The notes under the pieces are model-generated. The model had not been told where the DNA came from, did no database searches, and was given only the letters and a program-made list of their open reading frames with translations. Shown here one piece after another: positions 14,947-46,193 of a DNA stretch of 64,000 nt. Position numbers and translations under genes: made by a program. Each line of letters opens with the position of its first letter. Position 1 is the first letter of the stretch. Origin of the DNA: Gammaproteobacteria bacterium (GTDB lineage: Bacteria; Pseudomonadota; Gammaproteobacteria; Steroidobacterales; PWYM01); NCBI GenBank assembly GCA_007693855.1, contig RECU01000053.1:1-64000 (forward strand). Reading direction: 5' to 3'.

Positions 14947-16491
14947 TCAGCGCATCGCCGCGAGGTTCTCGGCGTCGCTGTCGTCTTCCACCGGACCGTC
15001 GCGATAGCCGCCAACGCTCTCGGCGGGACGCGCGAATGACGCGTCGCGTCGGGACGCCTCGAGATCCGCAAGGTACTCGGCGGTGATGTCCCCGGTGACG
15101 TATTCACCGGAGAAACACGAGGTGTCGAAGGCTTCGATGGCCGCGTGATCGTGGCGCACGGCGCGGATCAGGTCAGGCAGCTGCTGGTAAATCAGCCAGT
15201 CGGCACCAATCAGCTGCGCCACGGCCTCTTCGCTGCGGCCGTTGGCGACCAGCTCGCTGGCCGCCGGCATATCGATGCCGTACACGTTCGGATACCGCAC
15301 CGGCGGCGCCGCGGAGGCGAAATATACCCGTCGGGCGCCGGCCTCGCGCGCCATCTCGATGATCTGCTGGGAGGTCGTGCCGCGCACGATCGAGTCATCG
15401 ACCAGCAGCACATTCTTGCCGCGGAACTCGAGATCGATGGCATTGAGCTTGCGGCGCACGGATTTCCGCCGCAGCGCCTGACCCGGCATGATGAACGTCC
15501 GCCCGATGTACCGGTTCTTGATGAAGCCTTCGCGGTATTTCACGCCGAGCCGATGGGCCACCTGGAGTGCGCTGGTTCGGCTGGTGTCAGGAATCGGGAT
15601 CACCACATCGATGTCGTGATCGGGGCGCTGGCGGGTGATGCGCTCGGCCAGGGCCTCCCCCATGCGCAGGCGCGACTTGTACACCGAAATATTGTCGATG
15701 ATCGAGTCCGGCCGCGCGAAATAGACATACTCGAACAGGCAGGGGGTATAGCTGGCCGGACCCCCGCAGGGATCGGTGTAAAGCCTGCCCTGGTGGTCGA
15801 TGAACACTGCCTCGCCCGGGCGCACGTCGCGCACCAGCTCGAAGCCGAGCGCGTCGAGCGCGACGCTCTCGGAGGCGATCATATGCTCGACACCCGCGCG
15901 CGTCTCACGCCGGCCGATCACCGCAGGACGGATGCCATGACGATCCCGGAAAGCGACGATCCCGTGGCCGCTGATCAGTGCCACCACGGCATACCCGCCG
16001 CGGCACCGCCGATGTACCGCCTCGACCGCGCGGAACACATCGCTCACGTCGAGGCGCCCGTTGGACAGGCTCGCGAGCTCGTGGGCGAAAACGTTCAGCA
16101 GCAGCTCGGAATCCGAGCCGGTGTTGAGATGACGGCGGTCTTCACGCACCAGCAGCTCGGAGAGCTCGGCGGCATTGGTGAGGTTGCCGTTGTGTCCGAG
16201 GCAGATGCCAAACGGAGAATTCACGTAGAACGGCTGGGCCTCGGAGGAACTCGAGCAGCCGGCCGTCGGATAGCGCACATGACCGATGCCGACGTTGCCC
16301 TTGAGGCGCAGCATGTGCCGCTGCTGGAAGACGTCGCGGACCAGCCCGTTGCTCTTGCGCATGTGCAGCCGTCCGCGGTCCTCCGTGACGATGCCCGCGG
16401 CGTCCTGGCCACGGTGCTGGAGGACGGTCAGGGCATCATAGATCCCCTGGTTGACGGGCTCACGCCCGACGATGCCGACAATTCCACACAT
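14947..16491 (-). CDS. purF: Amidophosphoribosyltransferase
   Basis: 514 residues beginning MCGIVGIVG, so Cys2 is the N-terminal nucleophile of the glutamine amidotransferase and no propeptide is present. The C-terminal phosphoribosyltransferase domain carries the PRPP loop [15 protein letters not shown] and also IPIPDTSR and GYAVV. PurF makes phosphoribosylamine from PRPP and glutamine, the first committed step of purine synthesis. It lies three bases after cvpA, and they probably share a transcript. Confidence 0.97.
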
Positions 16492-43609: not shown

Positions 43610-44197
43610 TCAACTCGCGAAATCGGCACGCAGCGCCGCGGCGGTGGCTGCATCGACCGGCTCGACAGCCACGCGGTAGTGGTCGTGATCGATACCCGCG
43701 GACAGCGCGGCGCCGTCACGGAAGGCCGTGATCATCTCCGGCGTGAACTCGAAACGCGCGAAATGCACCGACGAGGTTTTCTCATCGGTGGTGCGGTCGA
43801 GATCCTCGTTGCAGATCGGCGTCACGCGCTCGAAGCCCTCGACCTGCAGCCAGACGGCCTGCTCGATGCCGATCAGCTGGGCAAGGCGCTGGCGGCGCTC
43901 CTCGACATCGGGGAACTCCAGCATGAAGGTGGCCTTCAGATTGGTCCCGTCGGGGATCAGGGGGTTGTAGGCGGCGAGCTCGTCCTCGATGCCTTCCGGC
44001 TCGAAGACCCGCTCGATCCGCAGCATTTCCTGGACCTGGTATTGCAAGGTCAGGCGATCCTCGAAATACAGCGTGGCATTGGCCCCAAGATGGATCTTGC
44101 GGTGCTGCTTGTGCTCGAGCACTCGGGCGCGAAACTCCGGACGGATGCGCGCGTACTCCTCGAGACTATAGAGATCCTGGTGGGTCAGTGTGTTCAT
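43610..44197 (-). CDS. DUF3501 family protein
   Basis: 195 residues, acidic, no signal or membrane segment. It matches DUF3501: LYSLEEYARIRPEFRARVLEHKQ, the run YFEDRLTLQYQVQEMLRIERVF, and ATFMLEFPDVEERR. The biochemical role is not known. In many proteobacteria it is found next to rubrerythrin and a CCG-domain Fe-S protein, as here. It lies 19 bases after the Fe-S gene. Confidence 0.82.
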   Translation of the reverse strand: MNTLTHQDLYSLEEYARIRPEFRARVLEHKQHRKIHLGANATLYFEDRLTLQYQVQEMLRIERVFEPEGIEDELAAYNPLIPDGTNLKATFMLEFPDVEERRQRLAQLIGIEQAVWLQVEGFERVTPICNEDLDRTTDEKTSSVHFARFEFTPEMITAFRDGAALSAGIDHDHYRVAVEPVDAATAAALRADFAS

Positions 44198-44216: not shown

Positions 44217-45563
44217 TCAGATGCCGTAGGCGTGCCGCAGCAGGGTCATCGGGTGGCTGGCCGTGACGCCCTCGGCACCGCTGGCGATCTGCTCGGCCGC
44301 CATCGGGCAGTCACTGGCGAAGTGGTCGGCCTTGGCATTGCCGACCCGACGCACCACCGGCTGGGCGATCTTGCGCGACACCTCGTGAAATTCCTTTTTC
44401 ACCGCGTACGTGCCGTCGTGACCGGAGCAGCGCTCGATGGCCTCGACCTCGGTGTCCGGGACAAGTTTCAGCACGTCGCGGGTCTTCAGGCCGATGTTCT
44501 GGACCCTGAGGTGACAGGGGACCTGGTAGGCGACCTTGCCGAGACGCTCCGGGAACTCGGTGTTGAGCTTGCCGGCGCGGTGACGGGTCATCAGGTAATT
44601 GAACGGGTCCCACATCGCCGCCGCCACCTTCGCGACCTGCGCGTCGTCGGGGAACATCAGGGGGAGTTCCTGCTTGAACATCAAGACACACGAGGGCACC
44701 GGTGCGACGATGTCCCAGCCTTCGTCGACCAGTCGCGCAAGCTCGGGGACATTGACGTTCTTGGCCTGTTCCACGGCGTCCAGATCGCCCAGCTCGAGCT
44801 TCGGCATGCCGCAACACTTTTCGGTGGCGGCCAGACGGACAGGGATCGAGTTGTGCTGAAACACGGCGACCAGATCCTCGACCACCTGCGGCAGATTGCG
44901 ATTGCCGTAGCAGGTCGTGAAGACGACGACGCGGCCACGGGTGGCCTCGTCGGGCTCGGCCCCGTCGCCGGGGGCGTCGATCAGCTCGGCCAGGCGCTTG
45001 CGGGCGGTGTTGCTGTGATACTCGGGCACCGGCGCGTCGGCATGCACGCCGAGCACACCCTGCAGCAGCTTGCGCGCCGTGGCGTTGCGGTTGGCGGCGT
45101 TGACCGCCTGCACCACCACCGGGATCCCGGCCAGGCTGCCGACGGTTTCCGTGGCGGAGAGGATCTTGTCCCGGGTGGAGACCTTGCCGTCCTTGAACTT
45201 CTTCACCTTGGCCCGGAGCATGAGGTGCGGAAAGTCGACATTGAACGGGTGCGGCGGCACATAGGGACATTTCGACATGTAACACATGTCGCAGAGATAG
45301 CAGTGATCCACGACCTCCCAGTAGGCCTTCTTCGGCACACTGTCGAGTTCACCCGTGTCGGATTCATCGACCGCGTCGAACAGGGTCGGGAAGGCGTGGC
45401 ACAGGTTGAAGCAGCGCCGACAGCCGTGGCAGATGTCAAAAACGCGCTCCAGTTCACCGAACAGCGCGGGCTCATCGGTGAACTCAGGGGATTTCCAGTC
45501 CAGGGGGTGGCGCGTAGGGGCGTCGAGGCTGCCCTCACGCGGTGACTCGGGAGGCGTGGCCAT
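44217..45563 (-). CDS. CCG-domain Fe-S oxidoreductase (GlpC-like)
   Basis: 448 residues from MATPPESPREGS; the longer frame reading into rubrerythrin is a shadow. Two 4Fe-4S motifs are at about 50-100: CHGCRRCFNLC and CYLCDMCYMSKCP. Two cysteine-rich CCG-like domains follow: FTTCYGNRNLPQV with CCGMPKLELGD, and QVPCHLRVQN with RCSGHDGTYAV. This is the GlpC/heterodisulfide reductase D architecture. It has no membrane segment and probably passes electrons to rubrerythrin. The donor is not evident. Confidence 0.85.
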   Translation of the reverse strand: MATPPESPREGSLDAPTRHPLDWKSPEFTDEPALFGELERVFDICHGCRRCFNLCHAFPTLFDAVDESDTGELDSVPKKAYWEVVDHCYLCDMCYMSKCPYVPPHPFNVDFPHLMLRAKVKKFKDGKVSTRDKILSATETVGSLAGIPVVVQAVNAANRNATARKLLQGVLGVHADAPVPEYHSNTARKRLAELIDAPGDGAEPDEATRGRVVVFTTCYGNRNLPQVVEDLVAVFQHNSIPVRLAATEKCCGMPKLELGDLDAVEQAKNVNVPELARLVDEGWDIVAPVPSCVLMFKQELPLMFPDDAQVAKVAAAMWDPFNYLMTRHRAGKLNTEFPERLGKVAYQVPCHLRVQNIGLKTRDVLKLVPDTEVEAIERCSGHDGTYAVKKEFHEVSRKIAQPVVRRVGNAKADHFASDCPMAAEQIASGAEGVTASHPMTLLRHAYGI

Positions 45564-45597
45564 GGGTGTCGGTCCTGGGTGTCGCTTAACAAGGGAA

Positions 45598-45651: not shown

Positions 45652-46071
45652 TCAGGCGTCGAGCTGATCCAGTGCCTTCTGGAAGCGGTTGGCGTGCGAG
45701 CGCTCGGCCTTGGCCAGCGTCTCGAACCAGTCGGCGATTTCGTCGAAGCCTTCGTCGCGGGCGGTCTTCGCCATTCCCGGGTACATGTCCGTGTACTCGT
45801 GGGTCTCGCCAGCGATGGCGGCCTTGAGGTTCTCGGCGGTCGCGCCCATCGGCAGCCCGGTGGCGGGATCGCCGACCCCTTCGAGGTATTCGAGATGCCC
45901 GTGCGCATGGCCGGTCTCGCCTTCGGCAGTCGACCGGAACACGGCGGCGACGTCGTTGTAGCCCTCAACGTCCGCCTTGGCGGCAAAGTACAGATAACGG
46001 CGGTTGGCCTGGGACTCGCCGGAGAAGGCCTCCTTGAGGTTCTGCTCGGTTTTGCTGCCCTTCAGTTCCAT
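45652..46071 (-). CDS. Rubrerythrin lacking the rubredoxin domain
   Basis: 139 residues from [18 protein letters not shown] lies 7 bases before this ATG but only one base before the ATG at 46077. The ferritin-like di-iron site is complete: [44 protein letters not shown] and [10 protein letters not shown]. The protein has no cysteine at all, so the C-terminal rubredoxin centre of classic rubrerythrin is missing. It should reduce H2O2 in the cytoplasm with electrons from another protein. It is first in the operon and has a strong promoter with an operator-like palindrome. Confidence 0.9.
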
Positions 46072-46141
46072 GGTCATGCTCCTTAAAACTACTGCGATGG
46101 AGCCCGCAGCAGTGCCTTTGCAACACTGCTCACCGGGCGGT

Positions 46142-46156
46142 TTAGACTCAGTCTAA
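46142..46156. promoter_or_regulatory. perfect 15-base palindrome, candidate operator
   Basis: TTAGACTCAGTCTAA: two 7-base arms around one central base. It starts eight bases after the rubrerythrin -10 and covers the predicted transcription start, a typical repressor position. The regulator is not known. The pattern does not closely match the Fur box or the NsrR box as I know them. Confidence 0.75.
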
Positions 46157-46164
46157 GCACGAGG

Positions 46165-46193
46165 AATCTAGCCCCCGCCTGAAGGCTTGTCAA
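46165..46193 (-). promoter_or_regulatory. consensus sigma70 promoter of the rubrerythrin operon
   Basis: On the minus strand -35 TTGACA (46188-46193, perfect) and -10 TAGATT (46165-46170) are exactly 17 bases apart. The start would be near 46158, about 85 bases before the ATG. Confidence 0.85.

Follow-up and report, generated by a model that had tools for sequence, protein, structure and literature searches.

A perfect palindrome over the transcription start of a rubrerythrin operon was identified in a gammaproteobacterial genome, and comparative analysis indicates that it is quite probably an operator bound by an Irr-like, FUR-family repressor. The palindrome, TTAGACTCAGTCTAA, lies at positions 46142–46156 (no strand assigned) of the 64,000-nt window, by which we mean the whole stretch of DNA analysed, and its letters, TTAGACT-C-AGTCTAA, form two 7-bp inverted arms around one central base, the arrangement of a FUR-type 7-1-7 box. 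A promoter search on the minus strand placed a -35 hexamer TTGACA (46193–46188), a 17-bp spacer, a -10 hexamer TAGATT (46170–46165) and, 8 bp further, TTAGACTGAGTCTAA; the preliminary description had reported a perfect palindrome eight bases past a TTGACA-17-TAGATT promoter, which is exact by these coordinates. The promoter scored 10/12, and none of 50 shuffles gave such a promoter. The start codon of the first gene, 64 bp downstream of the palindrome, belongs to a rubrerythrin without a rubredoxin domain (45652–46077, minus strand; Pfam PF02915, 104.8 bits; NCBIfam rubrerythrin model 140.7 bits, below its cut-off of 200), which adjoins genes for a DUF3501 protein (third in the operon; 43610–44197, minus strand; PF12007, 236 bits) and for RFO (second; 44217–45566, minus strand; PF02754; GlpC model 225 bits, below its cut-off), the latter named after PMC5114695. 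This is an operon of the aerobic type, with the same three genes as the cluster named in the accessible part of PMC5114695, which treats evolution and gene content and gives no regulator or operator (the terms regulator and promoter both count 0). Upstream of the operon, the frames on the other strand were read from their sequence as putative xseB, ispA and dxs.

The palindrome scored 27.1 with the weight matrix, a value within those spanned by the 102 training sites. Within three mismatches it was matched once in the window, against a chance mean of 0.20, and the exact palindrome was a single copy in the 3.28-Mb genome. As such it is unremarkable: perfect 7-N-7 palindromes number 23 in the window, where uniform bases would give about 3.9, so that the significance of the site comes from its conservation. 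The preliminary description had made its reading depend on conservation ahead of orthologous operons and had proposed a search of the genome and its relatives for TTAGACT-N-AGTCTAA before rubrerythrin genes. This search did not refute the reading: of the 97 genomes sampled for the order, 26 contained the exact pattern and 1 the backwards control, the corresponding counts for the 369 class genomes being 28 and 6, and 43 of the 56 exact sites in these samples (own site counted once) had a rubrerythrin operon downstream (21/27 in the order and 23/30 in the class, own site in both). Four further exact sites preceded katG (three by family model and one, L120, by reading of the translation) and one preceded a peroxiredoxin gene, placing 48/56, the site in the window among them, ahead of the peroxide regulon of rubrerythrin, katG and peroxiredoxin genes. 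Six exact sites had no sensible target (L033, L035, L050, L114, L118 and L119). The gene gpmI, which encodes the Mn-dependent, 2,3-BPG-independent phosphoglycerate mutase, was directly downstream of the exact palindrome in two of the 56 cases, in different families (L113 near 2974 in genome G227, and L115 near 2982 in genome G220).

With up to three mismatches allowed, 96 of the 107 distinct upstreams of rubrerythrin genes contained the palindrome; the presence or absence of exact sites had partly guided the choice of these upstreams, so that 96/107 is not an unbiased frequency; the best match carried 0, 1, 2, 3 or more mismatches in 43, 32, 19, 2 and 11 of them, respectively. At the same threshold, 136 of 147 rubrerythrin upstreams were matched, against a mean of 2.3 and a maximum of 63 for 199 permuted palindromes, and the site was present in 142 of 193 distinct upstreams once later loci, named ones included, had been added. 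Upstreams with less than 100 bp ahead of the start codon (less than 80 bp for the sets of 107 and 147) were excluded, and the best site was retained where a genome had several upstreams. The weight-matrix consensus, T-TTAGA(C/A)T-N-A(G/T)TCTAA-A, has both arms conserved and the centre free (102 sites). The three-mismatch cut-off overlooks some asymmetric sites, and the matrix, at a score of at least 8, was applied to the named loci; about 6% of its control windows exceeded this threshold, windows drawn from the same loci and possibly including true sites. Among the best 80 named loci by protein identity, 40 had the site and 40 did not, and few were intermediate. These results demonstrate that the palindrome is a real and widely conserved element ahead of a peroxide-defence operon.

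The position of the site relative to the promoter was conserved as well. A sigma-70 promoter was detected in 129 of the 142 distinct site-bearing upstreams; among these 129, the site began 8–13 bp past the -10 in 92 and 0–15 bp past it in 94, and it overlapped the -10 or the spacer in 33. Several katG and peroxiredoxin sites were read as having similar promoters, and two matrix matches occurred in 13 upstreams. Judged from these predicted promoters, placement over or near +1 is the geometry of a repressor. The earlier proposal of a symmetric site over +1 of a repressed stress operon is favoured by the comparative data. In one katG promoter (L042, 6001–6037), two tandem palindromes were observed, one on the -10 and the other on +1.

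A search for the FUR family (PF01475) in the own assembly returned three members, Fur and two Zur-like proteins (L029 by its likeness to L028). In 22 of 23 site-bearing genomes, a further FUR-family member distinct from Fur and Zur was found, which covers only approximately positions 2–99 of the profile, has no terminal cysteine motif and, in the copies read, carries a motif like HHHFYNVDTGEL; the sole exception was an 88% complete genome (G070). In genome G087, a single 3.49-Mb contig (95% complete) with an exact site, this member was the only FUR protein. The best NCBIfam models of four gammaproteobacterial proteins scanned were IrrA and Irr, at 112–129 of 150 and 107–120 of 170 bits, below both curated cut-offs (Irr/IrrA models NF045677 / NF045678). 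Both histidines of the HxH heme motif were present in 52/52 Irr-like proteins (51 gammaproteobacterial ones and that of locus L231), with 0–2 cysteines per protein and no C-terminal zinc cysteines. The proteins were aligned on PerR chain 2fe3 and on the best PDB match, chain 5nl9 (107 bits), which we take to be PerRA; ligand positions follow what we take to be the PerR residue numbers. The residues aligned with PerR H37, D85, H91, H93 and D104 were H, D, H, H and D in 52/52, and Glu is aligned with both D85 and D104 in the own genome's Fur. Asp versus Glu at PerR 104 is, on our assumption, the telling difference for the metal site, yet the Asp seen in 52/52 is shared with Irr and so is not diagnostic. 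In a tree, the 51 gammaproteobacterial rows formed one clade (92/100, branch 1.35) beside five alphaproteobacterial rows; the Fur/Zur outgroup branches were long and the bootstrap unsettled. The preliminary description had considered an Rrf2-, MarR- or FUR-family regulator, and of these the data now favour the FUR family, specifically its Irr/PerR-like branch. A profile built from 13 Irr-like proteins (A1) detected the gene in 150 of 369 class genomes (about 40%). In the order, 68 of the 97 genomes matched it with at least 159 bits, and nine more, with weak matches (about 62–65 bits), were not counted. Three genomes of one genus (G014, G027 and G058) had a second, diverged Irr-like paralogue at 102–113 bits.

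Presence of the site and of the Irr-like gene was correlated across genomes. Among 121 genomes tabled with a rubrerythrin upstream in hand, the site being defined by at most three mismatches, the gene was present in 98 of 109 site-bearing and 3 of 12 site-less genomes (Fisher P = 2.5e-6); the latter three are G079, G129 and G150, and several of the 11 site-bearing genomes without it are incomplete. When one genome per family label was retained (38 genomes), the gene was present in 31 and absent from 1 with the site, versus 2 and 4 without (P = 1e-3). In a held-out set, 50 of the 80 named loci with site status fixed by the matrix beforehand, the gene was found in 16 of 23 site-bearing genomes, seven lacking it, versus 4 of 27 site-less ones (P = 1e-4), a set not wholly independent, as equal coordinates (e.g. 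G443, G503) hint at genomes shared with the class sample. The two genes were also neighbours in several lineages: the distance from the rubrerythrin gene to the Irr-like gene was 0.3–2.1 kb in seven class genomes with four family labels, and at named loci the Irr-like gene was divergent to the rubrerythrin gene (L199, L205, L215), downstream and facing the cluster (L192, L198) or ahead of the rubrerythrin gene (L231). In the 369 class genomes, both genes were present in 113, rubrerythrin only in 45, the regulator only in 37 and neither in 174; rubrerythrin matches with E above 1e-45, 13 weak ones, were excluded from this table, and the presence lists for it and for the 121 genomes were compiled by hand. 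Since 37/369 genomes have the Irr-like gene without a rubrerythrin gene, the regulator must do more than control this operon. No autoregulatory site was found near the irr-like gene in eight loci examined.

The Irr-like gene was absent from the own assembly in searches with both the PF01475 and the A1 profiles. In a congener (genome G001, locus L282), the gene order is ispH-fimT-irr-tRNA, the names of the neighbours being our presumptive assignments. The tRNA side of this region matches contig C90 of the own assembly up to position 15062 of 15063, approximately 8 bp past the expected irr stop, and the ispH-irr side has no match anywhere in that assembly. Since C90 ends at the expected place of irr and the gene is present in 4/4 congeners, we infer that its absence probably reflects an assembly gap and that the organism would possess it. 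The absence of a PerR/Irr-type regulator, which the PF01475 result for the own genome had pointed to, was overturned by the 23 site-bearing genomes and the end of contig C90. The own assembly, with a completeness rating of 100%, is missing the segment in which G001 carries ispH and irr.

From these features we infer binding and repression by the Irr-like protein, with peroxide as the signal. A dimer over +1 would keep the rubrerythrin-RFO-DUF3501 operon off by blocking its strong sigma-70 promoter; in relatives, the same repressor would also block katG and a 2-Cys peroxiredoxin gene. Peroxide would oxidise the metal (or heme) at the conserved H-D-HxH-D site, the repressor would probably be released, and the operon would be switched on under peroxide stress. 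The signal is read as peroxide because the targets are rubrerythrin, katG and peroxiredoxin genes, and by this sequence-based argument peroxide is more likely than iron or heme. With the same operator and the same protein, the signal could instead be iron or heme, apo-Irr repressing under iron scarcity and releasing once heme or iron is abundant, a possibility that is compatible with the operator assignment and that we hold to be real but on balance doubtful. It draws on the likeness to the Irr/ICE box system of Alphaproteobacteria, which extends to the best family models (IrrA and Irr, though below their cut-offs), the HHH motif and the ligand set; the five ligands are identical in four alphaproteobacterial Irr-type proteins and so do not tell peroxide apart from heme or iron as the signal. 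The ICE consensus, which we take to be TTTAGAA-N3-TTCTAAA, is close to the site here. In the accessible part of PMC3413700, Irr is reported to bind at the rubrerythrin-like gene mbfA, whose operator, as here, coincides with the start of transcription, the 5' end falling within the Irr box, and an irr mutant is reported to resist peroxide; the accessible part of PMC7762939 describes Irr as heme-sensing and almost confined to Alphaproteobacteria, with few exceptions. In contrast to alphaproteobacterial Irr, the gammaproteobacterial proteins appear as a clade apart in the tree and score below both curated cut-offs, the half-site is mostly TTAGACT, and the targets seen are not iron and heme genes but the soluble rubrerythrin-RFO-DUF3501 operon, katG and peroxiredoxin. 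Against an iron or heme signal stand these peroxide scavengers, the lack of a recognised iron or heme uptake gene at exact sites outside rubrerythrin operons (bar a TonB-receptor-like frame beside the L035 site), and the tendency of site-less upstreams to carry OxyR-like boxes instead. Also close are PerR of Bacillus and Campylobacter and PerRA of Leptospira, FUR-family repressors of peroxide defence with the same five ligands as the Irr-like protein; the PerR operator, presumably TTATAAT-N-ATTATAA, is likewise 7-1-7 and differs by a few bases. By sequence, the Irr-like protein resembles Irr more than it does any PerR model, and peroxide sensing is here our reading of the targets.

Other binders fit the data less well than the Irr-like protein. 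A regulator of the Rrf2, MarR or another family, with a gene that co-occurs by chance, is unlikely; the regulator profile searches covered the FUR family, but hitch-hiking would leave unexplained why the Irr-like gene adjoins the operon in several lineages. Slightly less likely still is binding by Fur or Zur themselves, which account for all FUR members detected in the own assembly and whose family as a whole fits the 7-1-7 geometry: G087 has the site with no Fur or Zur detected, and the site tracks the Irr-like gene across genomes. A variant OxyR, with TTAG-N7-CTAA read as a form of ATAG-N7-CTAT (presumably the OxyR half-pattern), would account for the type of regulon and the outer spacing; it is very unlikely, as the site is at +1, not upstream of the -35, is compact and mostly single, and tracks the Irr-like gene. 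Fur, Zur and OxyR are thus disfavoured as binders, in agreement with the earlier remark that the half-site is no close match to a Fur, OxyR or NsrR consensus. ATAG-N7-CTAT boxes take the place of the site: of the 51 site-less upstreams 14 had one, lying 83–154 bp ahead of the start codon, where shuffling would give 0.2, versus 2 among the 142 upstreams with the site (P = 1.4e-7); rubrerythrin upstreams with such a box and no Irr-like site include those of L202, L235, L173, L216, L212 and L191, and 37 of the 51 site-less upstreams had neither element. These boxes by themselves suggest that OxyR may run the operon in some bacteria without the Irr-like site, a swap of regulator. An RNA hairpin was rejected as hardly credible, as the palindrome, mostly inside the transcribed leader, lies at or before the -10 and is hence partly untranscribed in 33/129 cases, a hairpin with both arms fully paired would have a loop of one base, and an Rfam search gave no match.

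For Gammaproteobacteria, textbooks give OxyR as the regulator of the peroxide response. In the open-licence literature, we found neither this operator nor an Irr-like peroxide regulator from Gammaproteobacteria described before; the accessible parts of PMC10374146, PMC7760498 and PMC4842269 add no gammaproteobacterial case of such control. We advance, with somewhat less than even confidence, the broader idea that an Irr-derived, peroxide-sensing repressor, a functional PerR, may be a main peroxide regulator in many environmental Gammaproteobacteria, and that control of rubrerythrin-RFO-DUF3501 has been swapped between a repressor at +1 and an OxyR activator upstream of the -35. If this is true, one operon would be run by opposite logics in related bacteria. 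The conserved operator together with a FUR-type gene present in 150/369 genomes would give a handle on the control of the aerobic-type rubrerythrin operon, and this handle would extend to its uncharacterised DUF3501 partner. How the signal changed between Irr and PerR would become testable with one protein and one operator, for which natural counterparts seemingly under OxyR exist.
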